From an uncultured Prevotellaceae bacterium (GTDB lineage: Bacteria; Bacteroidota; Bacteroidia; Bacteroidales; Bacteroidaceae): a stretch of 64,000 nt of DNA. The position numbers were made by a program, and so were the translations under genes. Of the stretch, positions 2,166 to 20,925 are shown piece by piece. The notes beneath the pieces were generated by a model, which saw only the letters and a list, made by a program, of their open reading frames with translations, made no database searches and was not told the DNA's origin. How positions within the stretch are numbered: the first letter of the stretch is position 1; the number at the start of each line of letters is the position of its first letter. The stretch lies in contig OMXS01000008.1 in NCBI GenBank assembly GCA_900315095.1, positions 51,722 through 115,721 on the forward strand, given 5' to 3'.

Positions 2166-3503
2166 TTATTTCTTGTCTTTTATCACTCCCACACATAGCG
2201 CACCGATAATGAGAAGCACGCCAGCCACAACCATCATGTTGCTCTGCACAGAGCCGACAAGGCTGAGGATTATGCCGCCAACGAGGGCTGCCACAATCTG
2301 AGGAATGCAGATGGTGCCGTTGAAAAGGCCAAGGTAGGCGCCCATGTGACCATATCCCTCAAGGGCATTGGTTACAAAGGTGAACGGCATAGCAAGCATT
2401 GCTGCCCATGCGCAACCGATGAGGAGGAACGGGATGAACTGCATGTACTGATTTGAGAAGAAAGGAACAGAGGCGAAACCGATGCCGCCGAGCACGAGAG
2501 AGAAGGCATAGGCGAACTTGCGGTTGCCGATTTTGGGGAGTACAGTAGCCCAAATCACACTGCCGATGGCCTGGACGGCGAAGAGGATTCCCACCCAGTT
2601 GCCCGCTTTCTGATATGCCTCGCCCATGGTGGCGTTGGCGTCTGTCATGTCAACACCGAAGCATACGCTGGCGATGGAGCCGTTGGTGTATGTCCACATG
2701 TACATGAATGCTGCCCAACAGAAGAACTGCACCAATCCCACTTTCCAGAATGTAGAGGGCGCGTTCTTAAGAAGCGTAATCCAGTTGCCGCTTCCTGAGT
2801 CCCCGGAATTGCTCGACTTCGCGTTTTCTTCTGACAGCCCGTTATACTTGGCATAGTCTTCGGGGTTCCATTCCTTCACCTTAAGCGTGGTGTAGATGAC
2901 ACAAAGTATGAGGATGGCAGCGCCGATATAGAACGACCATATTACGGAGTCGGGCACTATTCCCTTAGGAGCCTCGTTGGCAATGCCTATCGCTGTGAAG
3001 AAGAAAGGGAACACAAAGCCCACCACAGAACCTGCATTGCAGAGGAAACTCTGTATTGCGTATGCCAAGCCTTTTTGCTTCTCGTTGACCATGTCGCCAA
3101 CAAGCATCTTGAAAGGCTGCATCGCCATGTTGATGCTTGTGTCGAGGAACATCAGCGAGATGAGGCCGAATATCATGGCTGTGCTTACCGCCATGCCGAA
3201 GGATCCTGCGTTCGGAAGGAGGCACATCACGGCAACGGCACAGGCAGCGCCCACAAAGAGGTACGGTATTCTGCGCCCGAAGCGCGTCCATGTCTTGTCA
3301 CTCAGCGTTCCGATGATAGGCTGCACGATGATTCCCATCAGCGGCGGCAATATCCAGAAGTATGAGAGGTTGTGCGGGTCGGCTCCTAGCGTTGAGAAAA
3401 TGCGCGAGATGTTAGCGCTCTGCAATGCGTAGGCGATTTGCACTCCGAAGAATCCGAAACTCAGATTCCATAGTTGCGAGAATTTTAAATCTGGTTTTTC
3501 CAT
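2166..3503 (-). CDS. MFS sugar transporter (GPH/SLC45-like)
   Basis: A 445-residue, twelve-helix inner-membrane transporter. The start MEKPDLKFSQLWNLSFGFFG and the segments 'QPIIGTLSDKTWTRFGRRIP' (the G-x-x-SD-x-x-..-GRRRP loop between helices 2 and 3) place it in the sugar:cation symporter group that includes sucrose and maltose carriers. In Bacteroidetes such a gene next to a LacI regulator and starch enzymes usually imports maltose or maltodextrins from the periplasm; that substrate is inferred from context. It lies 144 bp downstream of the lacI gene on the same strand and is probably cotranscribed with it. No separate promoter box was found upstream. Confidence 0.85.
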   Translation of the reverse strand: MEKPDLKFSQLWNLSFGFFGVQIAYALQSANISRIFSTLGADPHNLSYFWILPPLMGIIVQPIIGTLSDKTWTRFGRRIPYLFVGAACAVAVMCLLPNAGSFGMAVSTAMIFGLISLMFLDTSINMAMQPFKMLVGDMVNEKQKGLAYAIQSFLCNAGSVVGFVFPFFFTAIGIANEAPKGIVPDSVIWSFYIGAAILILCVIYTTLKVKEWNPEDYAKYNGLSEENAKSSNSGDSGSGNWITLLKNAPSTFWKVGLVQFFCWAAFMYMWTYTNGSIASVCFGVDMTDANATMGEAYQKAGNWVGILFAVQAIGSVIWATVLPKIGNRKFAYAFSLVLGGIGFASVPFFSNQYMQFIPFLLIGCAWAAMLAMPFTFVTNALEGYGHMGAYLGLFNGTICIPQIVAALVGGIILSLVGSVQSNMMVVAGVLLIIGALCVGVIKDKK

Positions 3504-3647: not shown

Positions 3648-4673
3648 TTAACGCGTAGTTCCTCTTACAACTAATCGTGTCCTCACCACTTTCTTCTCAA
3701 TCTTACCAGAAGGAAGAAGTCCTTCGACGTGAGCCACAAGCACATCGACAGCTTCTTCTCCTACCATGTGCCCGCGCTGTTCGACGGTGGTAAGCATCGG
3801 GTCGCATGCCACGGCGCGTTCTCCGTTTGTGAATCCGCAGATGCTGACATCCTCTGGCACTTTGAACCCCATTCGCTTGGCGGTATATAGTATTCCGATG
3901 GCGGTGTCGTCGTTGATTGCAAAGAAAGCGTCGGGCCTGTCCTCGCGGCTTAACACCTCTGGTGTGAGCACTTCAGCATCGGCGCGGTTGTCGCAGATGA
4001 ACTCCAGCGACTCGTCTATTTGCAACCCGTGGCGCAGCAGAGCGTCGCGGTAACCGTTATAGCGGTTCTTTGAAATCTCGAGTTTCATCGAAGCGCCATA
4101 GAAAGCGATGCGTCTGCACCCTGTCTCTATGAGATGTGTCACAGCTGTAAATGCTCCCATGTAGTCGTCAACCACCACACGGCTGGCATTAATGCCTGTG
4201 CAAATGCGGTCGTAGAACACCAAAGGCACTCCCATGTTGGTAAGTTTCTGGAAGTGATCGTATTCCACTGTGTCCTTCGCTTGTGACACAATGACTCCGC
4301 AGACGCGGTTTTCCATGAAGTGTTCGCATATGCGTTTCTCTAAGTCATATCGCTCCTCGCTTTGTGCCACCATGATATTGTAGCCGCGAATGCGTGCCTG
4401 TTCCTCGATGCCTGAAAGTATCGTGGAGAAGTAGTAGTGTGCTATCTGCGGTATAATCACGCCGATGATGTTCGAGGGTTTCACTCGGTTGTGGCGCAGT
4501 TGCTCTGCTGTGAGGTTCGGATAAAAGTTATGTTCGCGCGCAAACTTTTTGATGCGCTCCTTCTGTTCGGTGCTGATGCGCGGGCTGTCTTTCAATGCCC
4601 TTGACACCGTAGCCACCGAAACGCCCAGTTCGCGGGCAATATCTTTCATCGTGAATGAGGTGCTATCGTTCAT
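3648..4673 (-). CDS. LacI-family transcriptional regulator of the starch locus
   Basis: A 341-residue cytoplasmic regulator. Residues 8-60 form the LacI helix-turn-helix with hinge (MKDIARELGVSVATVSRALK, then ISTEQKERIKKFAREHNFYPN); the rest is a periplasmic-binding-protein-like sugar sensor (from about IIGVIIPQIAHYYFSTILSG to PMLTTVEQ). It is divergent from susC, and the palindrome GCAAACGTTTGC, the kind of site LacI proteins bind, lies midway between the two promoters. The same palindrome precedes three more transcription units of the locus, so this protein is the likely controller of the cluster. Because every site lies well upstream of its promoter, activation is as plausible as repression. 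The effector is probably maltose or a maltodextrin (inference). Confidence 0.9.
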   Translation of the reverse strand: MNDSTSFTMKDIARELGVSVATVSRALKDSPRISTEQKERIKKFAREHNFYPNLTAEQLRHNRVKPSNIIGVIIPQIAHYYFSTILSGIEEQARIRGYNIMVAQSEERYDLEKRICEHFMENRVCGVIVSQAKDTVEYDHFQKLTNMGVPLVFYDRICTGINASRVVVDDYMGAFTAVTHLIETGCRRIAFYGASMKLEISKNRYNGYRDALLRHGLQIDESLEFICDNRADAEVLTPEVLSREDRPDAFFAINDDTAIGILYTAKRMGFKVPEDVSICGFTNGERAVACDPMLTTVEQRGHMVGEEAVDVLVAHVEGLLPSGKIEKKVVRTRLVVRGTTR

Positions 4674-4823: not shown

Positions 4824-4831
4824 CAAAATTA
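4824..4831 (-). promoter_or_regulatory. -7 promoter box of lacI (and MFS gene)
   Basis: Reads TAATTTTG on the minus strand (TAnnTTTG). It lies about 150 bases upstream of the lacI ATG and exactly 56 bp from the near edge of the operator at 4887-4898. Confidence 0.55.
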
Positions 4832-4886: not shown

Positions 4887-4898
4887 GCAAACGTTTGC
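4887..4898. promoter_or_regulatory. LacI-type operator shared by divergent lacI and susC
   Basis: Perfect 12-bp palindrome GCAAACGTTTGC, embedded in TGTGCAAACGTTTGCGCG. Its edges are 56 bp from the lacI -7 box and 57 bp from the susC -7 box, so one site can serve both promoters with the same geometry. Confidence 0.8.
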
Positions 4899-4954
4899 GC
4901 GCAAAAATAATAAAAATAGTTGGCAAATTAAGTACAATGTAACACATTTAAAGT

Positions 4955-4962
4955 TAATTTTG
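4955..4962 (+). promoter_or_regulatory. -7 promoter box of the susCDEF operon
   Basis: TAATTTTG, matching TAnnTTTG, about 137 bases upstream of the susC ATG and 57 bp downstream of the operator edge. The rest of this 425-bp intergenic region is AT-rich with no further gene. Confidence 0.6.
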
Positions 4963-5098
4963 CAAAGTGAAACAACCCTTGTTGGCTTTTGACGAAAATA
5001 ACAGGTGAGACTAAATGTCTCTAGAAACTTACCGAGACGAGACAAATAAGTAGAATAATAACTAATAAATATATCACTAACTTAAAAAACAATGTATA

Positions 5099-8000
5099 AT
5101 GATGAAGCAGGTAAAAATTAGAATTCCTATGCGAGTTCTTTCCCTCTTGTTAGGGTTATTCCTATCTGTCGGGGCCTTCGCACAGTCGAACACTGTGACA
5201 GGTCAAGTCAAGGATGCTACCGGCGAACCAGTGATTGGCGCTACTGTCCGCATTGACGGTCAGAACGGCGGTGCCATCACCGACTTCGATGGTAACTTCA
5301 CTATTGAAGCTCCAGCAGGAGCCACTCTGACGATTTCGTATATCGGTTATCAGGACGCAAAGGTTACGGCGTCGCCACACATGGTGGTAACGCTGCAAGA
5401 GGATGCTGCCCAGAGCCTTAATGAAGTTGTCGTTATCGGTTATGGCGCTGTTAAGAAGAGCGACCTTACCGGTAGCGTTACGGCACTTAAGCCAGACTCT
5501 AAGAACAAGGGCCTTGTAGTTAATGCACAGGATCTTCTCCAAGGTAAGGTAGCAGGTGTGAATATCACTAGCGACGGTGGTACACCTGGTGGCGGCGCTG
5601 AAATCCGCATCCGTGGAGGTTCTTCACTTAGTGCAAGTAACAAGCCTCTTATCGTTATCGATGGTATCGCTATGGATAACGAAGGAGTTAAAGGTCTTGC
5701 CAACCCTTTGTCATTGGTTAACCCACAGGACATCGAGTCTTTCAACGTATTGAAGGACGCTTCTGCCACCGCTATCTACGGTAGCCGTGGTTCTAATGGT
5801 GTTATCATCATCACGACAAAGAAGGGTCGTCGTAGCCTTGAGGTTTCATACAATGGTAGTGTAACCATGAGTATGAAGAAGAAAACTGTAGACGTGATGG
5901 ACGGTGACCAGTATCGTGAGTTCGTAAGAAACACATTCGGTGAGGGCAGCGCAGCATGGAACGTACTTGGTACGGCTAATACTGACTGGCAGGAAGAGAT
6001 TTATCGTACTGCAATCAGCCAAGACCACAACGTCTCTTTGTCAGGAACTTTGTCGTCAGTGCTTCCTTATCGTGTAAGTGTTGGCTACACAGGACAGCAA
6101 GGTATCGTGAAAACCAGTAAGTTCGACCGTTACACGGCATCTCTGAACCTCAGTCCTTCACTCCTTCAGGACCACTTGAAGATTAACCTTAACGGTAAGG
6201 GAATGTGGGCAAAGTCTCGCTATGCTGACGGCGCAGCAATTGGTGCTGCCCTTTGGTTCGACCCGACACAGAGTCCGTATGACAACACTTCAGCAGACGC
6301 TGCCAACTTTGGCAACTTCTTCGAGTGGAAGTCTGACGGTACAGCTCTTAACGATCCGACATGGCCAAACACTTATTATTCTCTTGCAACGAAGAACCCG
6401 TTGGCAATACTTGAACTGAAAGACGATACTGCTATCAGCCGCGACTTCATTGGAAGTGCCGATGTTGACTATCAGATTCATGGTTTCGAGGATCTCCGCT
6501 TGCACATGACAGCAGGTGCTGACATATCGAGCGGTCGTCAGACAACTGATGTGCTGCCTTCTAACCCTCTGGCTATCTATTATGGTTCAACGGGCAGCGA
6601 CAGAATTACAAAGCGCAACTTGCAGTTCAGTGCTTATGCACAATACTATCATGACTTCAATGATGCTGCAAAGAACCACTTTGACATCATGGCAGGTTAC
6701 GAGTGGCAGCACTTCTGGCGCTCACAAAGCAAACGCTATTTCCAGTACTATCCTTCTACAAATCCTCTGGCAGGCCAGATATACTCTGACTCAGGCGTTG
6801 ACTACAATGGCGACGGCGTTCTCGAAGACTATCGCTTCAAGACAGAGAGTTACCTCGTTTCTTTCTTCGGTCGTGCCAACTGGAGCCTCATGGATGGTCG
6901 TTACATGTTGACAGGTACTGTTCGTCGTGATGGTTCTTCACGTTTCAAAGAGCACTGGGATACATTCCCATCGTTCGCTTTTGCATGGAAGATTAAGGAC
7001 GAGAACAAGTTCCGTGAGATCGACTGGCTGTCAGACCTTAAGTTGCGTGTTGGCTGGGGTATCACAGGTCAGCAGGACATCAACCAGGGTGACTATCCAT
7101 ATTTCGCAATATATCAGGCAAACTCTGGACAGGGTAGCCTCTATCCTTTGATTCCTGGTGTTGTGATGGTACGTCCTAACGAGTATAACCCAGACCTTAA
7201 GTGGGAGAAGACAACAACTTACAACCTTGGTCTTGACTTCGGTTTCTTCAACCAGAAACTGTCAGGAAGCATTGACTGGTATCTGCGTAAGACCACTGAC
7301 CTTATTAATAAGGCAACTGTTCCTGCAGGAACAAACTTCCGCAACCAGGTGATTTCTAACATCGGTTCGCTGCAAAACATTGGTACTGAGGTTACATTGA
7401 ACTGGCGTGCCATTGACACCAAGGACTGGCACTGGCTCCTTTCTTATAACTTCACATATAATGCCAACAAGATTACCAAGTTGACTGGTGGCGATGACGA
7501 GAACTACTACGTTCCTACAGGCGGTGTTTCAGCAGGAACAGGTAACACATGTCAGGCTCATGCTGTTGGACATCCAGCAAGTGCATTCTTTGTTTACCAG
7601 CAGGCTTACGATGAGGCCGGAAAGCCTATAGAGGGTGTTGTTGTTGACCGTAACGCTGACGGACAGATCACACCAGACGACCTTTACTTCTACAAGAGCC
7701 CGATGGCCCCTGTTACAATGGGCCTCTCTTCACGTCTTGAGTGGAGAAACTTCGACTTCGGTTTCTCTCTCCGTGCAAGCCTTGGCAACTATGTGTTCAA
7801 CGATCTTGCAGCAGGCACATCTAATGTTGGTTCAGGAGAAATCTTCGGTAACAGCATTTATATGACAAACCGTCCAATAGCAGCCATCGAAGACGGATGG
7901 TCTACATACAACCAGCATGCAATGCTTTCTGACCGTTGGGTGCAGAACGGTTCGTTCCTAAAGTGTGACAATATCACTCTGGGTTATAGCTTTGCTGACC

Positions 8001-8173
8001 TCTTCCGCGCTGGCAACTGGCAAGGCGTGAGTGGACGTGTCTATGCAACTGCCTCTAACGTGTTCACTATTACAAAGTATGACGGTATTGACCCAGAGGT
8101 GTTCGGTGGAATTGACAACAACATCTATCCACGTCCAATCTCTTTCATTCTTGGTCTTAACCTCAACTTCTAA
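5099..8173 (+). CDS. susC: SusC-type TonB-dependent starch oligosaccharide transporter
   Basis: A 1024-residue outer-membrane protein that imports glycans bound by its SusD partner, energised by TonB. Order: signal peptide (ends near VGAFAQ), CarboxypepD-regulatory-like domain (about residues 30-110, VTGQVKDATGEPVIGATV), the family signature VVVIGYGAVKK, plug domain (about 115-235, with 'VIDGIAMDNEGV' and 'ATAIYGSRGSNGVIIITTKK'), then a long beta-barrel ending in the aromatic LGLNLNF. Length is normal for SusC. It opens an operon with susD (47-bp gap), susE and a susF-like gene, preceded by a LacI-type operator. Starch specificity comes from the GH13, GH77 and GH97 neighbours. Confidence 0.95.
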   Translation: MMKQVKIRIPMRVLSLLLGLFLSVGAFAQSNTVTGQVKDATGEPVIGATVRIDGQNGGAITDFDGNFTIEAPAGATLTISYIGYQDAKVTASPHMVVTLQEDAAQSLNEVVVIGYGAVKKSDLTGSVTALKPDSKNKGLVVNAQDLLQGKVAGVNITSDGGTPGGGAEIRIRGGSSLSASNKPLIVIDGIAMDNEGVKGLANPLSLVNPQDIESFNVLKDASATAIYGSRGSNGVIIITTKKGRRSLEVSYNGSVTMSMKKKTVDVMDGDQYREFVRNTFGEGSAAWNVLGTANTDWQEEIYRTAISQDHNVSLSGTLSSVLPYRVSVGYTGQQGIVKTSKFDRYTASLNLSPSLLQDHLKINLNGKGMWAKSRYADGAAIGAALWFDPTQSPYDNTSADAANFGNFFEWKSDGTALNDPTWPNTYYSLATKNPLAILELKDDTAISRDFIGSADVDYQIHGFEDLRLHMTAGADISSGRQTTDVLPSNPLAIYYGSTGSDRITKRNLQFSAYAQYYHDFNDAAKNHFDIMAGYEWQHFWRSQSKRYFQYYPSTNPLAGQIYSDSGVDYNGDGVLEDYRFKTESYLVSFFGRANWSLMDGRYMLTGTVRRDGSSRFKEHWDTFPSFAFAWKIKDENKFREIDWLSDLKLRVGWGITGQQDINQGDYPYFAIYQANSGQGSLYPLIPGVVMVRPNEYNPDLKWEKTTTYNLGLDFGFFNQKLSGSIDWYLRKTTDLINKATVPAGTNFRNQVISNIGSLQNIGTEVTLNWRAIDTKDWHWLLSYNFTYNANKITKLTGGDDENYYVPTGGVSAGTGNTCQAHAVGHPASAFFVYQQAYDEAGKPIEGVVVDRNADGQITPDDLYFYKSPMAPVTMGLSSRLEWRNFDFGFSLRASLGNYVFNDLAAGTSNVGSGEIFGNSIYMTNRPIAAIEDGWSTYNQHAMLSDRWVQNGSFLKCDNITLGYSFADLFRAGNWQGVSGRVYATASNVFTITKYDGIDPEVFGGIDNNIYPRPISFILGLNLNF

Positions 8174-8220
8174 ATAAAATTAGAAACTTAGGAACTAAAA
8201 ACTTAAGAACTTTGAAACTT

Positions 8221-9855
8221 ATGAAAAAGTCTATTAAATATATATTCTCGGCAGCAGCATTGGCACTTGCTTTGGGTACCACGTCGTGTACAGGAGACTT
8301 GGACGTAACCCCAATCGACCCGAACCTTCAGACTGGAGATAAAATCAGTCCTGACGCGCTGCTGAACAAATGTTATGGCGTAATGGCACTTGCAGGACAG
8401 ACAGGTCCCGATGGTGACAGCGACGTTGACGGTATTGACGGCGGTACCTCGGGTTACTACCGCCAGTTGTGGAACTCTAACGAACTCACCACTGACGAGG
8501 CAATCTGCGGTTGGGGTGACACAGGTATCTATCCTTTCTGTATCAATGCAATAGACAAGAGCCACCCTATGCTCCGTGGTTTCTATTACAGACTCTATGT
8601 TGCAATTGCTTTCTGTAACCAGTATCTTGAGGAATTCAGCGATTATGACGCAACAAAGACTGCAGAGGTTCGTTTCCTCCGTGCTCTTGACTATTACTTC
8701 CTCTTGGATGGTTATGGCAATGTTCCTTTCACTCTTCATGTAACATCGGCAAAACCAACGCAGATTCAGCGTGCTGACCTCTATGAATGGCTGGAGCAGG
8801 AGTTGCTTGAGATTGAGCCTCTTCTTAGCGATGCAAAGGCAAAGACCTCAAGTGATGCCAACTATGGTCGTGTTGATAAAGCAGCTGCATGGTTCCTTCT
8901 CATGCGTCTCTATCTGAACGCAGAGGTTTACACTGGCACCCCACAGTGGAGTAAGGCAGCAGAGTATGCTCAGAAGGTTATGAATTCTGACTATAAACTC
9001 TATACCAACGATAAGGGAAACTATAGTGCATATGCACAGCTATTCATGGGTGACAATGGCGAGAACGGTGCTTCTGTAGAGGCTGTGTTCCCAATCCTTC
9101 AGGATGGTCTTACAACTCAGTCTTATGGTACTTCAACATTCCTTATGGCTGGTTCTATCGACGCTAATGTTCATATCTTCAGTTCCGATGTAAAGGGTGG
9201 CAACTCTTCAGAGGGTTGGGGCGGTAACCGCATGCGTCCAGACCTTGTTGCTAAGTTCTTCCCAAACAACGACGCTCCTAATGTGGCAGCATACGCTATG
9301 CCAGAGGCAGCAGGTGACGACCGTGCGATGTTCGACGGTGAGGGACGCGAGGTTGATGGAACCGAGACACTTGCTGATATCAACTCTGAAGGACACTTTG
9401 TTCGTGGTTTTGCTGTTTGCAAGTTCAATAACTTCAATACAGCAGGTGCCGCTGGTCATGGTTCTAAGTATAGCGATGCAGATGTGTTCCTCTTCCGTGT
9501 TGCTGAGGCTTACCTCACTTATGCTGAGGCTACAGCACGTCAGAATGGCGGAACTGTTACTTCTGATGGCTTGAATGCAATCAACGCACTGCGCAGCCGC
9601 GCTCATGCAGAGACAAAGGCAAACTTCACTCTGAACGAGATATGCGACGAATGGAGCCGCGAACTCTATTATGAGGCAGTCCGTCGTCCTACTCTTATCC
9701 GTTTCGGTCGTTACGCAGGCAATGTGAACTACAACTGGTCATGGAAAGGTGGCGTGAAGAGTGGTCGCAACATATCTGCTCACCTCTCTCTCTTCCCAAT
9801 CCCGGAGACCGACCTCATTGCTAATGGTAATCTCGTGCAGAATCCTGGATATTAA
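8221..9855 (+). CDS. susD: SusD-type surface starch-binding lipoprotein
   Basis: A 544-residue lipoprotein of the RagB/SusD family that forms the lid on the SusC pore. The start at 8221 (MKKSIKYIFSAAALALALGT) gives a clean type II signal peptide with the lipobox LGTTSC; an in-frame ATG 9 bases upstream adds nothing. The protein then shows the family's helical TPR-like core (for example RFLRALDYYFLLDGYGNVP and 'AEAYLTYAEATAR') and the C-terminal 'FPIPETDLIANGNLVQNPGY', the usual SusD ending. Second gene of the susCDEF operon. Confidence 0.95.
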   Translation: MKKSIKYIFSAAALALALGTTSCTGDLDVTPIDPNLQTGDKISPDALLNKCYGVMALAGQTGPDGDSDVDGIDGGTSGYYRQLWNSNELTTDEAICGWGDTGIYPFCINAIDKSHPMLRGFYYRLYVAIAFCNQYLEEFSDYDATKTAEVRFLRALDYYFLLDGYGNVPFTLHVTSAKPTQIQRADLYEWLEQELLEIEPLLSDAKAKTSSDANYGRVDKAAAWFLLMRLYLNAEVYTGTPQWSKAAEYAQKVMNSDYKLYTNDKGNYSAYAQLFMGDNGENGASVEAVFPILQDGLTTQSYGTSTFLMAGSIDANVHIFSSDVKGGNSSEGWGGNRMRPDLVAKFFPNNDAPNVAAYAMPEAAGDDRAMFDGEGREVDGTETLADINSEGHFVRGFAVCKFNNFNTAGAAGHGSKYSDADVFLFRVAEAYLTYAEATARQNGGTVTSDGLNAINALRSRAHAETKANFTLNEICDEWSRELYYEAVRRPTLIRFGRYAGNVNYNWSWKGGVKSGRNISAHLSLFPIPETDLIANGNLVQNPGY

Positions 9856-9882
9856 AACAATAACAAATAAAGCATATTCATT

Positions 9883-11088
9883 ATGAAAAATATAATCAAG
9901 TCAACATTGCTGCTGCTTTGCAGTGTGTGCATGTTCACTGCATGTAACGACGACCTTGACCACAACCCTGTGCTTCAGTCGCCTACTACATTCAAACTGA
10001 ACAATCCTGCTTACGCAGCCATTGTAACCGATTTGGCATCTTCGACCTCCCTTCCTTTCACATGGTCACAGCCAGATTATGGTTTCCCTGTTGCTGCAGA
10101 GTATGAACTTCAGGTGTCAACAAAAAACGACTGGAGCATTTCTGACGCTCAAGCTGCTGCTGATGAGTCGGGTGAGACCATCCCTACCTATGTCAGCGTT
10201 GGTACTCCTACTGGAGAATGTGCTACATCTATTGATGCTGCTGACGTGGCTAAGGCTATGCAGCAGATGGAACAGTGGCCTGAAGGTCAGGTTCCGTCAA
10301 CACAGGTGCTCTATGTGCGTGCAACTTCTACGCTTGCCGGAAATACCATCTACTCTAACGTAGTAGAGATAAACACCGTTCCTTATTATGTAGAGCTTAA
10401 GGATGCCGCACCTCTGTTGTGGTATGCTGTTGGTAGCTTTATCGGCGGTGGTTGGGGTAATGGCGCCGACCAGATTGGTAATGGTCTGATGCCTATGTTC
10501 CCGGCTAAGGACGCAGAGTTCGACAAGAAGACAGGTCTTGGCATTATCGACCTCACATTCTACATTCCTGAGGGCGGTCAGTTCAAGTTCGTTCAGATAC
10601 CAGGTAACTGGGATATCCAGAAGAATTATGCAGATTTCTTCGGTGATGGAACCAACGAATATTTCGAGTCCAACAGCGACGGAAACCTCTGCCTTAAGGA
10701 AGGCAAGGCAGGTTACTATGTAGCAACCTTCAACACTGCTAACGATGAGATTTCTATCGAACCTGCTACAGGTATCAAGGGCACTGTTTACAACTCTATT
10801 GCAATGCCTGGTTCACACAACGAATGGAATGCGGCATCCACTACCGATGCGCTTACACTCTGCGGTATGAAAGACGGCGGTGAAAGCCACATCTGGATGG
10901 GCAACTTCAAGCTCAGTGCTTGCGAACTTAAGTTTGCTGCTAACGGCAACTGGGATGTTAACTGGGGTGCTGCAGGATTCCCATACGGCGTTGGCGTACA
11001 GAATGGAAGCAATATTCCTGTATCAGAAGGTGATTACACCGTATTCTTGAACGACCTCACAGGTCAGTATATGTTTATCAGTAAATAA
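9883..11088 (+). CDS. susE: SusE-type starch-binding outer-membrane lipoprotein
   Basis: A 401-residue lipoprotein (lipobox CMFTAC). Residues about 28-170 match the SusE N-terminal domain (SPTTFKLNNPAYAA; ADEYELQVS-like 'AAEYELQVST'), and the remainder contains two beta-sandwich starch-binding modules: one from about 180 (WYAVGSFIGGGWGNG) and one from about 305 (AMPGSHNEWNAAS). SusE proteins hold starch chains at the cell surface and hand them to SusC/SusD. Third gene of the operon, 27 bp after susD; a hairpin separates it from the next gene. Confidence 0.88.
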   Translation: MKNIIKSTLLLLCSVCMFTACNDDLDHNPVLQSPTTFKLNNPAYAAIVTDLASSTSLPFTWSQPDYGFPVAAEYELQVSTKNDWSISDAQAAADESGETIPTYVSVGTPTGECATSIDAADVAKAMQQMEQWPEGQVPSTQVLYVRATSTLAGNTIYSNVVEINTVPYYVELKDAAPLLWYAVGSFIGGGWGNGADQIGNGLMPMFPAKDAEFDKKTGLGIIDLTFYIPEGGQFKFVQIPGNWDIQKNYADFFGDGTNEYFESNSDGNLCLKEGKAGYYVATFNTANDEISIEPATGIKGTVYNSIAMPGSHNEWNAASTTDALTLCGMKDGGESHIWMGNFKLSACELKFAANGNWDVNWGAAGFPYGVGVQNGSNIPVSEGDYTVFLNDLTGQYMFISK

Positions 11089-11103
11089 AAAACAGATTGC
11101 CTT

Positions 11104-11125
11104 GCCGCCTACTTGTTTAGGCGGC
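11104..11125 (+). other. Hairpin between susE and the susF-like gene
   Basis: GCCGCCTA and TAGGCGGC form a perfect 8-bp GC-rich stem with a 6-base loop. No U-run follows, so it is more likely an mRNA stability or processing element, or a partial attenuator, than a full terminator. Confidence 0.6.
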
Positions 11126-11152
11126 GGGCATACTAAAAACAATATCTGAAAT

Positions 11153-12523
11153 ATGAAGAAATTTATGACAATGCTCAGCGCAGTCCTGCTTCTCGTAGGA
11201 TGTTCTGGCAATGAATATGAAGACTGGCAGTCACCACAGAGCCACGAAGCAGAGGATGCTATCGTAATACCAGGCTTATCGGCTTCTGCAGTTGATGTAA
11301 TCAACTTCAACGATGTCACACTCTCTGACGATTTTGACCTTATCGCTTATACCCTTTCTGGCAATCTGCCCGATGGCTTCTCTGTCATGAAGGCTATAAT
11401 GGAATTTGATGGTGCCACAATAGATGCCAATGCGGAAGGCAAGGTGTCGAGCAAAGCCCTCTGCGATTATTTCGGTTCTGTATATGGCGTTCGTCCTGTG
11501 GAGCGTGAGGCAAATGCAAAGGTAATCCTCAATGTGATGGTTAACGGTGTGGCAACAAATGTTGATGCTGGCACAATCACTGTGAAGGCCATCCCGCAGG
11601 CACCAGAGATTGAGAGCAATTACTACATCACTGGTACAATAAATGGCTGGAAAAACTCTGACAATACCTACGTTGTTACCAACGACGGCAGCGATCCTTA
11701 TGAGAACCCGACATTCGGTATCACCATCAGTGTTGATAAACTTCAGGGCAATGCGCTCGAGTTCAAACTCACACCAGAATCAAAGATAGGTACAGAAGAC
11801 TGGAACAGTTGTCTTGCTGCAGCCAATGAGGAAGGCAAGTTCAACTACAACAACGTTGGCGGCAACTTCTGGGTTCCCGCAGCACCGGCAGAGGCTAAGT
11901 ATCTGCGCCTTACCTTCAACATGCTCGACCAGACTTGGTCTTACGAATATATAGCATTTGCACCATTTATCTATGAGATAGGCAATGAAGGTGGTTGGTC
12001 GGAGAATCATCCGCTGGCAAGCAATGGTGACGGCACATATACCGGTTTTGTTTATCTCAACGGCGAGTTCAAGTTCAAGCCTAATGCTGACAACTGGACT
12101 GACGACTGGGAGTGGGACGGCGATGGCAAGATTAGCGTCAACGGTCAGGGCAACGTGCCTGCTGCAACAGGTCTCCACCGTATTGATGTTGACATTGTCA
12201 ACCTCACTTACACCCTCTCTAAGATTGACTTCGTCGATATGATTGGCGATGCCACAGCAGGAGGATGGAATAACGGTACAGTGCTCACTTGGGATGATGC
12301 AGAGGGTTGCTTCAGCGTTATAACATCTATAGCAGCGCAGGGCACCGTGAAGTTCCGTGGCAACGGCACATGGGATAACTTCGACGGCAACTGGGGCGGC
12401 ACGCTCGCTGACCTTATCAACGGTAGCAATGACAACTGTGAACCTACAGTGCGTGGCGAAAACGTTAAGGTACGCTTCTATGCTAAGGGTAACTGCTACG
12501 CTACAATGGAAGAGGTGCATTAA
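11153..12523 (+). CDS. SusF/SusE-like surface starch-binding lipoprotein
   Basis: A 456-residue lipoprotein (lipobox LLLVGC) and last gene of the susCDEF operon. After a short linker and an Ig-like N-terminal region (about 30-155) come repeated starch-binding modules: 'YYITGTINGWKNSDNTY' (from about 160), 'IYEIGNEGGWSENHPLAS' (from about 268) and 'DMIGDATAGGWNNGTVL' (from about 360). The aromatic W-rich starts of each module are the parts that stack on glucose rings in SusE and SusF. It lacks a recognisable SusE-type N-terminal domain, so SusF-like is the better label. A strong terminator follows. Confidence 0.8.
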   Translation: MKKFMTMLSAVLLLVGCSGNEYEDWQSPQSHEAEDAIVIPGLSASAVDVINFNDVTLSDDFDLIAYTLSGNLPDGFSVMKAIMEFDGATIDANAEGKVSSKALCDYFGSVYGVRPVEREANAKVILNVMVNGVATNVDAGTITVKAIPQAPEIESNYYITGTINGWKNSDNTYVVTNDGSDPYENPTFGITISVDKLQGNALEFKLTPESKIGTEDWNSCLAAANEEGKFNYNNVGGNFWVPAAPAEAKYLRLTFNMLDQTWSYEYIAFAPFIYEIGNEGGWSENHPLASNGDGTYTGFVYLNGEFKFKPNADNWTDDWEWDGDGKISVNGQGNVPAATGLHRIDVDIVNLTYTLSKIDFVDMIGDATAGGWNNGTVLTWDDAEGCFSVITSIAAQGTVKFRGNGTWDNFDGNWGGTLADLINGSNDNCEPTVRGENVKVRFYAKGNCYATMEEVH

Positions 12524-12548
12524 TTGTTCTCTTTATAACTGATAAGCT

Positions 12549-12585
12549 AGAGGGCGCTCCGTTTTCGGGGTGCCCTCTTTTTGCT
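12549..12585 (+). terminator. Rho-independent terminator of the susCDEF operon
   Basis: AGAGGGCGCTCCG and CGGGGTGCCCTCT pair around a TTTT loop and are followed by a T-run. Confidence 0.9.
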
Positions 12586-12616
12586 TTTATATTCCTCTTG
12601 AGACCAATTGAAATGT

Positions 12617-12628
12617 GCAAACGTTTGC
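12617..12628. promoter_or_regulatory. LacI-type operator of the amylase gene
   Basis: GCAAACGTTTGC, extended to the 16-bp palindrome GTGCAAACGTTTGCAC (12615-12630). Its edge lies 56 bp upstream of the -7 box at 12684. Confidence 0.8.
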
Positions 12629-12683
12629 ACTTTATAAATGAGTGAAAAGCAACATTTTATGAACATTGTGATTGTTTTTATGC

Positions 12684-12691
12684 TATCTTTG
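12684..12691 (+). promoter_or_regulatory. -7 promoter box of the amylase gene
   Basis: TATCTTTG, perfect TAnnTTTG match, 35 bases upstream of the ATG. Confidence 0.75.
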
Positions 12692-12725
12692 CATTCAGAA
12701 ACGTAAACAATAAAACTGCTACATT

Positions 12726-14801
12726 ATGAAATACCTTCTGAAATCAGTAATTGCGACGGCTATGCTGGTGCTTTGCTCTCAGACAGCAAGTGCTCAAGGA
12801 TGGCCTGAAAACTATGGTGGCGTCATGCTGCAGGGATTCTATTGGGACTCTTTTGCACAGTCGAAATGGACAAAGCTGGAGAGTCAGGCAGAGGATTTTG
12901 CCTCTACGTTCGATCTTATCTGGGTGCCACAAAGTGGCAACTGCGGAGGTACTTCTATGGGCTATGACGACTTGTACTGGTTCCCAGGAGGCAACCATTA
13001 TTCCAGTTCTTTTGGCACTGAGGTGGAACTGCGAAACATGATTTCAACCTTCAAGAGCAAAGGTATTGGTGTCATTGCAGACGTGGTTGTTAACCATCGT
13101 AAGAACGTCAGCAACTGGGTTGACTTCCCTATCGAGACTTATAATGGTGTTACCTACCAGATGAAGTCCACCGATATTTGCAAAGACGATGACGGCGGTG
13201 CTACATTGGAATGGGCCAACAGCAACGGCTACTCGCTCAGTTCTAACAATGACTCTGGCGAAGGTTGGGGTGGCATGCGTGACCTTGACCACCACAGCAC
13301 AAACGTGCAGAACATCTGTAAGGCCTATACAAAGATGCTCATCGATGACCTCGGCTATACAGGCTTTCGCTACGACATGGTGAAAGGTTTCTCGGGTTCC
13401 TATGTTAGAGACTATAACAACTACGCAAAGCCGCAGTTCTCTGTAGGTGAATGTTGGGATGGTTCAAACACTATCAAGAACTGGATAGATGCCACAGAAA
13501 AAACTAGTGCTGCCTTTGATTTCCAATTCCGCTACACGGTACGCAATGCCATCAACAGCGCAGACTGGAGCCAATTAGGAAAGCAGAATGAAGGCAACTG
13601 GCCTTTAGTTAGCAGCAGTTTCAACAGCGGCAATTATCGTCAGTATGCTGTGACATTCGTGGAAAACCATGATACGGAAAGGCGCGCAAATGCTGAGCAG
13701 GACCCGATAAAGAAGGACACTTTGGCGGCAAATGCATACCTGCTCGCTATGCCAGGCACCCCGTGTGTGTTCTATACACACTGGCTCGCCTATAAGGATG
13801 AGATAAAGGCGATGGTTGCAGCGCGTAAACTGGCAGGTATAAACAACCAGAGCACATATTCCAACATGCGCAGCACAGCAACTTACTATGCCAACGCTGT
13901 GAAGACTGATGGCGAAAACCGTTTGATGGTTGTTGTCGGAAGCAATCCCGATGGCTATGTTCCGTCAAGTGGCTCGTACACCCTTATCCTCTCGGGTTAT
14001 CATTACCGCTACTACCTTGCCAACTCGCTTGAAACAGCATGGGCAGATAAGGCTTCAGGCGTTTATACCGATGCATTCAAAGTGAAACTGACTGCTGTAA
14101 GTGCTACCAGTGGTGCGCAACTCGTTTACACCACCGATGGTACCACACCTACTGCAAGCAGCAAGAAGGCATCAAGCGGTGCTGAGATTGACATCACAGA
14201 GAGTTGCACTTTGAAGGTGGGACTGCTTGTTGCAGGTGCCGTGAAGGGTATCATCGAGCGCAACTACACCATCGAAGAGAACACCTTCGACCCGAAGACA
14301 ATTACCGTTTATTGCCGTGTGGGCGCTGGAGTCAGCGGCTGGACAACAATGAACTACTGGACTTGGAGTGACTTCGGTCATGAACCGACCAACAGAAGTT
14401 GGCCAGGTGACCGTATCACAGCAACAAAGCAGGTTGACGGATATACATGGTATTATAAGGAGTACACGCTTACAAGCGAGGACGACTATGTTAACTTCGT
14501 GTTCAGCAACGGCAGCGGTTCTCCACAGTCGGTTGATATCAATAACGTTAAGGACACCAAGTTCTTCGTAATACGCAATGAGAAGGACGGCGCAGGTCAC
14601 TATTATGTTGACGATGTGACACCAACATCGGGCATCGACTACCTACGCTCAACATTCAACCCTCAGCGTGCTGCGCTCAACGTTTACAGTATCGACGGCC
14701 GTCTCGTGCGCACTATGCCTGCTGGAGCATCGGCAAGCGACGCGCTCAACTCGCTGCCACACGGAATATACATCGTGAACGGCAAGAAGGTCGTGAAGTG
14801 A
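12726..14801 (+). CDS. Secreted GH13 alpha-amylase with starch-binding module and sorting tail
   Basis: A 691-residue enzyme that cleaves internal alpha-1,4 bonds of starch. Signal peptide ends at TASAQ with no lipobox Cys, unlike the lipoprotein SusG. The GH13 catalytic domain (about 24-430) has DVVVNH, FRYDMVKG (nucleophile Asp near 215), GECWDG (acid/base Glu near 241) and ENHDTE (third Asp near 315). Then a chitobiase-C-like segment (about 448-510, VYTTDGTTPTAS), a probable CBM26-type starch-binding module (about 520-630), and a C-terminal tail (about 645-691, LNVYSIDGRLVRTMPAG to NGKKVVK) of the kind recognised by type IX secretion. Monocistronic, with its own LacI-type operator, promoter and terminator. 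It probably replaces SusG in this locus. Confidence 0.92.
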   Translation: MKYLLKSVIATAMLVLCSQTASAQGWPENYGGVMLQGFYWDSFAQSKWTKLESQAEDFASTFDLIWVPQSGNCGGTSMGYDDLYWFPGGNHYSSSFGTEVELRNMISTFKSKGIGVIADVVVNHRKNVSNWVDFPIETYNGVTYQMKSTDICKDDDGGATLEWANSNGYSLSSNNDSGEGWGGMRDLDHHSTNVQNICKAYTKMLIDDLGYTGFRYDMVKGFSGSYVRDYNNYAKPQFSVGECWDGSNTIKNWIDATEKTSAAFDFQFRYTVRNAINSADWSQLGKQNEGNWPLVSSSFNSGNYRQYAVTFVENHDTERRANAEQDPIKKDTLAANAYLLAMPGTPCVFYTHWLAYKDEIKAMVAARKLAGINNQSTYSNMRSTATYYANAVKTDGENRLMVVVGSNPDGYVPSSGSYTLILSGYHYRYYLANSLETAWADKASGVYTDAFKVKLTAVSATSGAQLVYTTDGTTPTASSKKASSGAEIDITESCTLKVGLLVAGAVKGIIERNYTIEENTFDPKTITVYCRVGAGVSGWTTMNYWTWSDFGHEPTNRSWPGDRITATKQVDGYTWYYKEYTLTSEDDYVNFVFSNGSGSPQSVDINNVKDTKFFVIRNEKDGAGHYYVDDVTPTSGIDYLRSTFNPQRAALNVYSIDGRLVRTMPAGASASDALNSLPHGIYIVNGKKVVK

Positions 14802-14888
14802 CCCGCCTGACTCTATAGAAGAAACACTGTACAACATAAAAAAGGATTCATGCTTGAATAAACATTAGGTTAAGTAAGATTGTAGTTC

Positions 14889-14930
14889 GAAACGCCTGCG
14901 ACGTGAGTCACGGGCGTTTCTTTTATTTGT
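14889..14930 (+). terminator. Terminator after the amylase gene
   Basis: GAAACGCC pairs with GGGCGTTTC around a loop of about 15 bases, followed by TTTTATTT. Confidence 0.75.
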
Positions 14931-14945
14931 TTGCATTACAATAAT

Positions 14946-14957
14946 GCAAACGTTTGC
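14946..14957. promoter_or_regulatory. LacI-type operator of malQ
   Basis: GCAAACGTTTGC, edge 57 bp upstream of the presumed -7 box at 15014. Confidence 0.8.
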
Positions 14958-15013
14958 GCAACTTATTTGTGCTTAAATGCCCTTTTTTAATATAAACAAC
15001 GCTTCTTTTTTCG

Positions 15014-15021
15014 TAATTTTA
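15014..15021 (+). promoter_or_regulatory. Presumed -7 promoter box of malQ
   Basis: TAATTTTA, one mismatch to TAnnTTTG. Chosen partly because its distance to the operator equals that in the other units. Confidence 0.45.
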
Positions 15022-15046
15022 CACCAAAATACTAACCATTGCTATT

Positions 15047-17773
15047 ATGAATCTACAATTTAATATCAATTATCAGACGAGTTTTGGAGAAGACCTAATA
15101 CTCAACCTCATTGACAAAAATGCCAAAGACGGAATAACAAAGTATAGAATGAACACTCTCGACGGAATGCGATGGACATGTGATTTGCGTCGAGAGGAGA
15201 AACTGGGCAGTGCCTTGACTTATTACTACAGCGTGGAGCGCAATGGTTCGGAGACACAGCACGAATGGCTGGTAGAACCGCACAAGCTGGAGATATCAAG
15301 TCATAAAGGCGAGCGCTACATCACATACGACCACTGGATTCAGATACCAGAAGACAGTTATCTCTATAGTTCGGCATTTACAGAGTGTGTTGCACGTCGT
15401 CGCCGTCGCGATGTGGTGCAGAACAAGAACAATGTAACGGTTCGTTTGAAGGTGCGTGCGCCACAGTTGCGCAGCAATCATCGTCTTGCAGTTGTCGGAG
15501 CACAGGAATTCCTTGGTGCCTGGCAGTTGCATGATGCAAAACCTATGGTTGAGCATCAGTGCAACGAGTGGATTATCGACTTCGAGGCATCTAACATGTC
15601 GGGCGTTACACTTGAGTTCAAGTTTGTTGCTCTCGACGAGAATCACGACATCATGCCGTTATGGGAGACTCAGGGCAACCGCATTGTCACGCTGCCGCCG
15701 ATGGGAGCAGGCGACGTGGTGGTCTATGAACTCGACCAGGCGTTCTTCCCCATTTATAACGTGAAGTGTGCTGGCACTCTAGTGCCTATATTCTCACTCC
15801 GTTCTAAGGACAGTTTCGGCGTTGGCGACTTCGGCGACCTTCGCAAGATGGTTGACTGGGTTTCAAAGACGGGACAACGCGTGCTACAGGTGCTGCCTAT
15901 CAACGACACCACAACCACCAAAACATGGACCGACTCTTATCCATATTCTTGCATCAGTATCTTTGCCCTTCATCCGCAGTATGTTGACTTCAAGCAACTT
16001 CCAGCACTAAAGGACGAGAAAGAGCGCAAGCGTATGGAAGCACTTCGCAAGGAACTCAACGCTCTGCCTCAGATAGACTACGAGCGTGTGAATGCTGCCA
16101 AGCAAGAGTATCTGCGCCTCCTTTTTGAGCAGGAGGGAAAAGAAGTGCTGGCGTCAGCGGCGTTCAAGACATTCTTCAAGGAAGAAGAGCTGTGGCTGGT
16201 TCCATACGCACAGTACAGTATGCTGCGCGACAAGAACGGCACAGCAGACTTCACAACATGGAAAGGCAACACCTCCTGGAACGAGGAAGACCGCAAGGCA
16301 CTCAGCAATCCCCGCAACAAGGCATTCAAGGACGTGTCATATTTCTATTACGTTCAGTTTGTGCTCAACCAGCAGATGAGCAGCGCCCACGAGTATGCAC
16401 GCTCCAAGGGAGTGGTGCTGAAGGGCGACATCCCTATCGGAGTGAACCGCACCGGATGTGATGTGTGGCAGGAGCCGCGCTACTTCAACCTTAACGGTCA
16501 GGCAGGAGCGCCGCCAGATGACTTCTCGGTGAACGGTCAGAACTGGGGATTCCCCACATACAACTGGGATGAGATGCTCGCTGATGGATGTCAGTGGTGG
16601 GTGCGCCGTTTCCAGAACATGTCGAAATATTTCGATGCATACCGCATAGACCACGTCCTCGGTTTCTTCCGTATATGGGAGATTCCTGTAGAGTCGGTTC
16701 ACGGTCTGCTCGGTCATTTCTCACCCGCACTCGGAATGACGCGCGAGGAGATAGAGGCATACGGGCTGAAGTGGCAGGAGAAACTGTTCACCGAACCGTT
16801 CATTACCGACTGGGTGCTCGACCGTGTGTTCCACGAGGATGCTGAGCGTATACGCAACAAGTTCCTGGAGTCTATCGGCGACGACCGCTACCGCATGAAG
16901 GAGCAGTACAACACTCAGCGCAAGATAGAGAAATGGTACGAGGATGTGACCGCCACCCAACAACAATCATCCATCACGCCTGAGTACCAAATGCCTTTGG
17001 CCTCGGTGCGCGACGGACTCTATGCTCTCATCAGCGATGTGCTCTTCGTGCGCGACCATAAGGATGAGAACCGCTTCCACCCGCGTATCTCTGTACAGTT
17101 CGATTTCATCTATGAGTCGCTTTTCGACAGTGACAAGTTCCTGTTCAACAAACTGTACAACGACTATTACTACCGTCGCAACAACCAGTTCTGGTATCGT
17201 GAGGCAATGAAGAAACTGCCGCTTCTGGTGCAGGCGACACGAATGCTGGTGTGTGCTGAGGATCTTGGAATGGTGCCCGACTGTGTTCCTTGGGTGATGA
17301 ACGAACTGCGCATATTGTCGCTCGAACTGCAGTCGATGCCTAAAGACCCGAATGTGCGTTTCGGTCATCTGTCACAGAACCCCTATCGCTCGGTGTGCAC
17401 TATATCAAGTCACGACATGCCTACGCTGCGCCAATGGTGGGATGAGGACGAGGCACGTACGCAGGAATATTTCAGCACGATGCTTCATCGCGAGAGTTAC
17501 GCACCGCATCCGCTGCCGGGATGGCTGGCAGGCGACATCATCTCGCGCCACCTCACATCGCCCTCGATGCTCTGCATCCTTTCTATTCAAGACTGGCTTG
17601 CTATCGACGAGAAACTGCGTCTTGCTGACGCAAATGCCGAGCGTATTAATATCCCAGCAAATCCCAAGCATTATTGGCGCTACCGCATGCACCTCAACAT
17701 TGAGGACTTGATGGCAAGCAAGGATTTTAATGAGGAGATACTGGATTTGATTCAGAGTAGTGGTAGGAAATAA
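15047..17773 (+). CDS. malQ: 4-alpha-glucanotransferase (GH77) with N-terminal CBM20 modules
   Basis: A 908-residue cytoplasmic amylomaltase of the long DPE2-like type. It moves maltooligosaccharide units between chains and frees glucose from maltose. Two CBM20-like starch-binding modules precede the catalytic domain (about 1-115 and 130-240, the second with 'VVGAQEFLGAWQLHDA'). GH77 begins near 255 (FSLRSKDSFGVGDFGDL). Catalytic residues are visible: nucleophile Asp in FDAYRIDH (near 532), acid/base Glu in CAEDLG (near 740) and the third Asp in SSHDMP (near 788). No signal peptide. Monocistronic with its own operator and terminator. Confidence 0.95.
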   Translation: MNLQFNINYQTSFGEDLILNLIDKNAKDGITKYRMNTLDGMRWTCDLRREEKLGSALTYYYSVERNGSETQHEWLVEPHKLEISSHKGERYITYDHWIQIPEDSYLYSSAFTECVARRRRRDVVQNKNNVTVRLKVRAPQLRSNHRLAVVGAQEFLGAWQLHDAKPMVEHQCNEWIIDFEASNMSGVTLEFKFVALDENHDIMPLWETQGNRIVTLPPMGAGDVVVYELDQAFFPIYNVKCAGTLVPIFSLRSKDSFGVGDFGDLRKMVDWVSKTGQRVLQVLPINDTTTTKTWTDSYPYSCISIFALHPQYVDFKQLPALKDEKERKRMEALRKELNALPQIDYERVNAAKQEYLRLLFEQEGKEVLASAAFKTFFKEEELWLVPYAQYSMLRDKNGTADFTTWKGNTSWNEEDRKALSNPRNKAFKDVSYFYYVQFVLNQQMSSAHEYARSKGVVLKGDIPIGVNRTGCDVWQEPRYFNLNGQAGAPPDDFSVNGQNWGFPTYNWDEMLADGCQWWVRRFQNMSKYFDAYRIDHVLGFFRIWEIPVESVHGLLGHFSPALGMTREEIEAYGLKWQEKLFTEPFITDWVLDRVFHEDAERIRNKFLESIGDDRYRMKEQYNTQRKIEKWYEDVTATQQQSSITPEYQMPLASVRDGLYALISDVLFVRDHKDENRFHPRISVQFDFIYESLFDSDKFLFNKLYNDYYYRRNNQFWYREAMKKLPLLVQATRMLVCAEDLGMVPDCVPWVMNELRILSLELQSMPKDPNVRFGHLSQNPYRSVCTISSHDMPTLRQWWDEDEARTQEYFSTMLHRESYAPHPLPGWLAGDIISRHLTSPSMLCILSIQDWLAIDEKLRLADANAERINIPANPKHYWRYRMHLNIEDLMASKDFNEEILDLIQSSGRK

Positions 17774-17786
17774 GACGATAGATAAG

Positions 17787-17818
17787 TGCCGTTGTTCATC
17801 AGGACAACGGCATTTTTA
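17787..17818 (+). terminator. Terminator after malQ
   Basis: TGCCGTTGT and ACAACGGCA form a perfect 9-bp stem followed by TTTTTAT. Confidence 0.9.
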
Positions 17819-17871
17819 TAGAGTTTGACAAAAGGACTACTGCTTGCTTTTTCCCTTCTGCACCGTCATTT

Positions 17872-17883
17872 GCAATCGATTGC
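17872..17883. promoter_or_regulatory. Variant LacI-type operator of susB
   Basis: GCAATCGATTGC, a 12-bp palindrome with the same outer bases as the other operators but ATCGAT at the centre. Its edge lies 56 bp upstream of the -7 box at 17939, the same distance as in the other units. Confidence 0.65.
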
Positions 17884-17938
17884 TCAGCCGTTTAAAAAAT
17901 AATGTGCTGTCGTTGAATAAGTTTTAAAAATAAATTAC

Positions 17939-17946
17939 TATCTTTG
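17939..17946 (+). promoter_or_regulatory. -7 promoter box of the susB operon
   Basis: TATCTTTG, perfect consensus, 26 bases upstream of the ATG. Confidence 0.75.
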
Positions 17947-17959
17947 CGCTATCATTTAA

Positions 17960-20248
<2,289 letters not shown>

Positions 20249-20367: not shown

Positions 20368-20925
20368 ATGTCAGAAGAACTTAAACAACTAAAAGCAGAA
20401 AATGAGCAACTGAAGAAAGACGTGGAACGTCTGAGAGACGAGCTCATCCGACTTGTAAGCCGCAATCTTGACCTTTCAGAAAGGCTCGAATATGATGTGG
20501 AACTGCGCCGCCGCACCGAAGTGGCGCGCGAACTGCTCGAAGGCAACATACAGCGACAACTGAATGCCGACCTTAAGGACGATGCTCAGTTGATGGCTCT
20601 CATCGAACTTCGTGTGGAAAGCGACCGCCCGCATCTCAAGCCCGACTTCAACTCTACCGACCTTGCTCGTCTGCTCGACGTGAGTCACGAGAGGCTGGTG
20701 CAGTTGTTCCGTCATCAGACGATACACCGCACCCCCGACGCTTATATCGATAATCTCCGCGTGCTGGCGGCACTCCGTTTGCTGCGTGAGAAGCCACAGT
20801 ACAACATCGCGGTGGTGGCAGAGGAGGCAGGCTTCAGCAACGTGCGCACCCTTCAGCGCCGCGTTCAGGATGCCATAGGAATGACTCCTGTGGACTATCG
20901 CAACATGCTCAACCGCGACAAGTAA
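20368..20925 (+). CDS. Small AraC-type DNA-binding protein with coiled coil
   Basis: A 185-residue soluble protein. Residues 1-50 are heptad-rich (EELKQLKAENEQLKKDVERL), a probable dimerising coiled coil; residues about 90-182 form an AraC/XylS-type double helix-turn-helix (STDLARLLDVSHERLVQLF, then VVAEEAGFSNVRTLQRRV). No sensor, receiver or transmembrane part is present. The HTH resembles that of the large Bacteroidetes membrane regulators, so it may be a stand-alone output domain. It lies in the middle of the starch operon, 119 bp after susB and 30 bp before the pullulanase gene. Role in starch gene control is inferred from position. Confidence 0.8.
   Translation: MSEELKQLKAENEQLKKDVERLRDELIRLVSRNLDLSERLEYDVELRRRTEVARELLEGNIQRQLNADLKDDAQLMALIELRVESDRPHLKPDFNSTDLARLLDVSHERLVQLFRHQTIHRTPDAYIDNLRVLAALRLLREKPQYNIAVVAEEAGFSNVRTLQRRVQDAIGMTPVDYRNMLNRDK

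Follow-up and report, generated by a model that had tools for sequence, protein, structure and literature searches.

A LacI-family regulator of an alpha-glucan regulon in Prevotella-type bacteria: a fixed operator–promoter distance suggests activation from upstream

The locus and its operators

The stretch of DNA analysed here (64,000 nucleotides, hereafter the window) is part of the 3,243,784-base genome, in 58 contigs, of an uncultured Prevotellaceae bacterium, with Prevotella and Segatella as named relatives. It carries a gene for a LacI-family regulator (lacI), a divergent susC cluster and further genes for starch and maltodextrin use, with four predicted operators between them. A sequence-only reading of this DNA had claimed that the operators precede the −7 boxes of susC, the amylase gene, malQ and susB by 57, 56, 57 and 56 bp, and direct reading of the letters confirms the four values (distances are taken as start of the −7 box minus end of the operator). 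The variant site of susB and the weak box of malQ were said to keep the distance as well; they do, at 56 and 57 bp, and the weak malQ box recurs in relatives. The susC operator lies, in addition, 56 bp from a minus-strand box facing the divergent lacI, which the sequence-only reading did not mention. The observation holds, and the case for it goes beyond what that reading had stated.

Operators (no strand assigned) and −7 boxes
4887..4898, no strand, operator GCAAACGTTTGC, common to the lacI and susC promoters
4824..4831, minus strand, presumed lacI −7 box TAATTTTG, 56 bp from the operator
4955..4962, plus strand, susC −7 box TAATTTTG, 57 bp from the operator
12617..12628, no strand, operator of the amylase promoter GCAAACGTTTGC
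12684..12691, plus strand, amylase −7 box TATCTTTG, 56 bp from the operator
14946..14957, no strand, operator of the malQ promoter GCAAACGTTTGC
15014..15021, plus strand, weak malQ −7 box TAATTTTA, 57 bp from the operator
17872..17883, no strand, operator of the susB promoter GCAATCGATTGC
17939..17946, plus strand, susB −7 box TATCTTTG, 56 bp from the operator

The sequence GCAAACGTTTGC is a perfect palindrome and occurs exactly three times in the genome, each time in the window; the single genomic copy of GCAATCGATTGC is also in the window. Both predicted sites have the CG-centred palindromic form of LacI/GalR operators. When one mismatch is allowed, GCAAACGTTTGC is found at 13 places in the genome (10 besides the exact three) vs. 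12 for the reversed control, so that information comes from the exact matches only. At two mismatches, 8 sites lie in the window vs. 11 expected.

Genes
2166..3503, minus strand, MFS sugar transporter downstream of lacI (Pfam MFS_1/MFS_2)
3648..4673, minus strand, lacI, LacI-family regulator of 341 amino acids (Pfam LacI and Peripla_BP_3)
5099..8173, plus strand, susC, SusC/RagA TonB-dependent transporter (TIGR04056, above cut-off)
8212..9855, plus strand, susD-like lipoprotein gene (Pfam SusD_RagB; NCBIfam SusD below cut-off)
9883..11088, plus strand, susE-like outer-membrane protein gene (PF14292)
11153..12523, plus strand, next gene of the susC cluster, without Pfam or NCBIfam match
12726..14801, plus strand, alpha-amylase-family protein (Pfam Alpha-amylase; NCBIfam amylase models below cut-off)
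15047..17773, plus strand, malQ, GH77 4-alpha-glucanotransferase (Pfam and NCBIfam profile matches)
17972..20248, plus strand, susB-type GH97 enzyme (Pfam)
20368..20925, plus strand, small protein of 185 amino acids with an AraC-type helix–turn–helix, within the susB-led series
20956..22875, plus strand, pulA, type I pullulanase (TIGR02104, above cut-off)
22887..25109, plus strand, SusA-type neopullulanase/cyclomaltodextrinase

The lacI product has the two parts that mark the LacI/GalR family, an N-terminal LacI helix–turn–helix (PF00356, residues 8–53) and a periplasmic-binding-protein-like domain (PF13377, residues 178–340), both above gathering scores. Every NCBIfam model that it matches stays below cut-off, and its closest match by sequence among solved structures is the "glucose-resistance amylase regulator," that is, CcpA. 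The MFS gene is probably part of the lacI transcription unit, and a relative of it occurs near lacI in 59/59 locus rows (some genomes being counted twice). In the susB-led series, the gaps between reading frames are 119, 30 and 11 bases, with the AraC-type regulator gene inside; a single susB-led operon, which would extend the control to pulA and the SusA-type gene, is plausible.

Conservation of the distance within the genus

A LacI at E ≤ 1e-60 (paralogues included) is present in 54 of 61 genomes of the genus. Thirty loci were fetched and, in 28 of them (the window's own included), the region inspected contains the operator, with a lacI-side distance of 55–58 bp in 28/28 and a susC-side distance of 56–57 bp in 27/28. 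The remaining two loci are on truncated contigs: in L025, the distances are 57 and 57 bp, and L036 ends before the operator. The pattern operator-N40..70-TANNTTTG is present in 87 of 101 genus genomes and, among the matches listed, 143/150 fall at 55–58 bp although 41–71 bp were permitted (one site may appear twice, and the p-value ignores relatedness). The reversed pattern gives three matches in the same 101 genomes.

Counts by gene were made over 80 named loci, 77 of which show a lacI or susC operator. The distance is 55–58 bp at all 76 lacI sites, at all 26 amylase sites (20 with strict boxes and 6 with TANNTTCG), at the three susB sites and at 34/45 malQ sites (16 strict and 18 variant boxes), and 56–57 bp at all 74 susC sites (73 strict boxes and one variant). 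Among the 34 box-bearing malQ promoters of relatives, 11 have a TTTA-type box at the expected place. The variant boxes (TTCG, TTTA, TTAG, TCTG) were admitted after misses were seen, which makes these counts post hoc; with the strict box alone, 188/224 labelled sites are at 55–58 bp, and for 18 the box is found at some other place within 110 bp. The counts leave out 86 site-strand records that have no labelled gene downstream, presumed to be mostly the opposite strands of palindromes; five of them have a box at 57 bp.

Conservation beyond the genus

At E ≤ 1e-95, a LacI is found in 55 of 301 family genomes and in 11 of 30 genera. The set beyond the genus consists of 36 of those 55 genomes, from ten other genera, with LacI proteins 50–74% identical; only boxes at 50–62 bp were counted. 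The lacI-side distance is 55–58 bp in 35/36 genomes and, on the divergent side, a box stands at 56–60 bp in 27/36. A divergent susC relative is present in 31 of the 36, 25 of them with the box at 56–60 bp. Thus, the comparison across related genomes that the sequence-only reading had proposed finds the spacing conserved in the genus and in ten other genera; a spacing not conserved in relatives, the outcome named there as fatal to the claim, did not occur.

In a sample of the phylum, LacI matches at E ≤ 1e-90 are found in just 3/395 genomes. Across the order (324 genomes), 38 sites of the same sequence class occur in 28 genomes, two already known genomes being excluded; 21 of the 38 are at 55–58 bp vs. 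4.9 expected if distances were uniform (a single genus accounts for 10 of the 21), and the reversed pattern gives two matches. A search of 18 of these genomes found a LacI in every one, with best matches 40–55% identical. In three genomes of one genus (G919, G1092, G1015), a site is directly upstream of the LacI gene. A helical comb with one-turn steps, considered for the few distances near 36 and 46 bp outside the genus, was rejected: the order-wide 35–38 bp class, with 4/38 sites, is not significant.

Doubled operators and spacers

Four genomes (L203, also numbered L238; L197; L208; and L221) have two intergenic operators, with 56–57 bp between each of them and its own promoter; in L203, 100 bp separate each operator from the promoter of the other. 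The mean identity of the spacers is 33–42% by gene class vs. 35% between unrelated promoters. These observations bear on the view that the spacing is kept by descent, without function. Closely related loci do share ancestry, which the p-values ignore; on the other hand, spacer identity is at or little above background, the distance is common to unrelated promoters (lacI, susC, amylase, malQ, susB) and the doubled operators retain it. Descent without function is hardly credible as an explanation.

Make-up of the promoters

The promoter consensus has TTTG near −33 (PMC7366714). A TTG was sought at −26 to −21 from the box, with ordinary promoters (n = 64, from 20 fetched stretches of four genomes) as controls. 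The controls have it in 32/64, in line with the consensus, vs. 6/111 for the regulon promoters (p = 1e-11). By class, with variant boxes counted too, TTG is present in 2/53 lacI, 2/39 susC, 2/22 amylase, 1/26 malQ and 1/4 susB promoters, the last class being too small. In the other genera, TTG occurs in 1/29 regulon promoters vs. 8/16 controls, and the longer TTTG does not differ (1/29 vs. 2/16). A smaller set of 42 control promoters, taken earlier from the same loci, points in the same direction, with TTTG in 9/144 vs. 14/42.

Promoters that depend on an activator are typically without the upstream element. The regulon promoters present two features of class I activation, a site at a fixed distance upstream, with exceptions at malQ, and a core promoter with a degenerate upstream element, for which, within the genus, a motif ACAAC may partly compensate.

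A paralogous LacI with another geometry

A second, paralogous LacI of the genus (37–41% identical) was followed in 20 upstream regions (L239–L258, the copy of the window's own genome being L256). An operator, mostly GTAAACGTTTGC, is present in 18 of the 20. In 16 of the 18, it lies 19–20 bp before the −7 box of the paralogue's own gene, over the −33 region, a position typical of repressors, and in 13 of the 18 it lies 45–46 bp before a divergent box. From these positions, the paralogue is probably an autorepressor and may activate the divergent gene.

The sign of control

The LacI of the window is likely to be a dedicated transcriptional activator of the alpha-glucan (starch and maltodextrin) regulon, acting by upstream contact, in Prevotella-type bacteria of gut and rumen, and probably regulates its own gene positively. 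Activation rather than repression had been suggested from the constant distance; it is now supported, as an inference, by the conserved fixed geometry, the promoters mostly without a −33 element, the doubled operators and the contrast with the paralogue at its repressor-like position.

Several observations weigh against it. At 11/45 malQ sites, the operator is 20–43 bp before the start codon without a −7 box at the proper place. In 9/36 genomes of the other genera, the divergent-side distance is missing, six of these having a divergent susC, and several divergent sides there are at 71–90 bp or boxless. A fifth genome with two operators, L228, breaks the pattern, its second operator being 23 bp from a box. 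The paralogue of the window's own genome and that of a near relative show distances of 52 and 44 bp, not the repressor position. The motif ACAAC is found near −20, in place of the −33 element, in 24/111 regulon promoters of the genus vs. 0/64 controls, and also precedes a sigma-70-type gene; therefore, the absence of TTG need not mean a weak promoter. In 16/76 lacI promoters, there is, in addition to the box at 57 bp, a second TANNTTTG at a distance of exactly 20 bp. An upstream catabolite-responsive element (cre) can also repress, as in the lev operon of Bacillus subtilis (PMC3463425), and a search of open-licence papers turned up no experiment on this LacI.

The malQ loci concerned are L092, L096, L102, L114, L117, L119 (N-masked in the malQ region), L121, L123, L130, L132 and L134, the operator being mostly GCAATCGGTTGC or a near variant.

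The second lacI box belongs to loci with LacI proteins 73–82% identical (L066, L068–L074, L076–L078, L080, L081, L083, L085, L127). It may be an extra promoter repressed by LacI, since 20 bp is the place of the autorepression-like box of the paralogue, and the protein may there both activate and repress lacI. Because of this box, our confidence in activation, still high, is slightly lower than it was.

Most characterised proteins of the LacI family are repressors. A contact repressor of the GalR type, in which LacI, bound near −73, makes contact with RNA polymerase or its alpha subunit and keeps it inactive until maltose releases it, would have the same fixed upstream geometry, which alone does not separate activation from contact inhibition. 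The box at 20 bp would suit repression of lacI, and CcpA, bound upstream of lev, blocks LevR and thereby represses the operon (PMC3463425). However, the regulon promoters mostly lack the −33 TTG that half of the controls (32/64) have, which suits promoters needing help, and the paralogous LacI with its repressor-like position (16/18 regions) sits elsewhere. On these grounds, a GalR-type repressor is unlikely.

Less likely still is that another factor activates and LacI modulates it, as an anti-activator of the CytR type or as a co-activator. In favor, besides the recurrence of ACAAC near −20 in the genus, some susC promoters have TTGA-N6-TCAA at a constant −43 relative to the −7 box (11/75 exact, and seven more with one mismatch), possibly the site of a second regulator. 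But TTGA-N6-TCAA is absent from most promoters examined, ACAAC occurs in 0/29 regulon promoters of the other genera, and the LacI operator distance is common to promoters without either element.

The exact TTGA-N6-TCAA is found in the susC promoters of L066–L069, L074, L078–L081, L083 and L122. It was considered as a Crp site of Bacteroides and rejected, the published consensus being different (PMC3878776). ACAAC was likewise rejected as an element specific to the regulon, since it also stands before other genes and is not found in the regulon promoters of the other genera.

A proposed model of upstream activation

In the activation that we favor, a LacI dimer would bind the CG-centred palindrome observed in the DNA; its center would fall near −73 relative to the start of transcription, on the assumption that −7 is the center of the TAnnTTTG box. 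From there, LacI would contact RNA polymerase and recruit it to promoters mostly without a −33 element. With a promoter 56–57 bp on each side of the palindrome, one operator can serve both directions, susC on one side and lacI with the MFS gene on the other; if the sign is positive, serving lacI and the MFS gene would give positive feedback. The likely effector would be maltose or maltodextrin imported by the MFS carrier. In one lineage, the second lacI box at 20 bp may add autorepression.

A broader proposal, toward which we lean by a little, is that, across the Bacteroidales, a LacI-type protein would be a true upstream-contact activator with one mandatory operator–promoter distance. The symmetric palindrome would activate the regulator gene as well as the transporter operon, as a self-amplifying starch switch; the operator would double when the promoters separate, which lets each retain its distance, and, given a second promoter at 20 bp, the protein would in addition cap its own synthesis.

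Relation to known systems

In Bacteroides fragilis, OsuR is said (Spence, Wells and Smith, J Bacteriol, 2006) to be the activator of osuABCD, a starch operon with SusC, SusD and amylase, and to be needed for induction by maltose. OsuR may belong to the LacI family and may be the orthologue of this LacI, possibly with the same operator geometry. Should the two be the same regulator, activation would already have been shown, and the geometry would be the new part. In B. fragilis and Bacteroides uniformis, which are without SusR, LacI-type regulators, MFS carriers and GH65 enzymes are predicted in the predicted sus loci (PMC11633381).

CcpA of B. subtilis is, like this LacI, a member of the LacI family, and activates as a rule from a cre upstream of −35 in a manner dependent on the face of the helix (PMC3463425). 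Unlike this LacI, it is global, mostly a repressor, and works with HPr-Ser-P (PMC3463425); the present LacI is local, adjoins its regulon and keeps one fixed distance, and its product is below the NCBIfam ccpA equivalog cut-off (156 vs. 442 bits). Cra/FruR is a dual regulator of the same family that activates gluconeogenic genes (PMC4052901), but it is global, and the lacI product is far below the NCBIfam Cra cut-off (134 vs. 385 bits). SusR of Bacteroides thetaiotaomicron activates starch (sus) operons on maltose as this LacI would, but it is a membrane protein with a periplasmic sensor, unrelated to LacI (PMC3878776). The reconstructed LacI-family regulators of B. thetaiotaomicron are for uronates (PMC3878776), and the sus system of Segatella copri DSM 18205 is incomplete (PMC11784079). 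In a search of open-licence papers, we recognised none describing this operator–promoter geometry.

When only its sequence is at hand, a LacI-family protein is usually taken for a repressor. The rule proposed here (an operator 55–58 bp before TAnnTTTG, with no −33 TTG) would predict, from sequence, the sign of control and the targets of an uncharacterised regulator in many Bacteroidales. The regulon would also be a natural setting in which to test upstream contact with the Bacteroidetes RNA polymerase and sigma factor, which are unusual.

Further candidate sites

Elsewhere in the window's own genome, GCAAACGTTTTC (L010, 1501–1512; C30:93329-93340) has −7 boxes 55 and 56 bp off on either side, between two genes whose products look secreted (judged by eye), and is possibly a further symmetric target. 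At L005 (C22:128946), upstream of nagB, the gene for glucosamine-6-phosphate deaminase, a −7 box is preceded by GTAAACGTTTGC at 55 bp.

Similar promoters (ACAACGTAT.. then TTACCTTTGCA) occur at L166, L167 and L172, in three genomes. Since two of the three have no ATG reading frame of 60 amino acids starting within 350 bases downstream, this promoter possibly serves an RNA gene.

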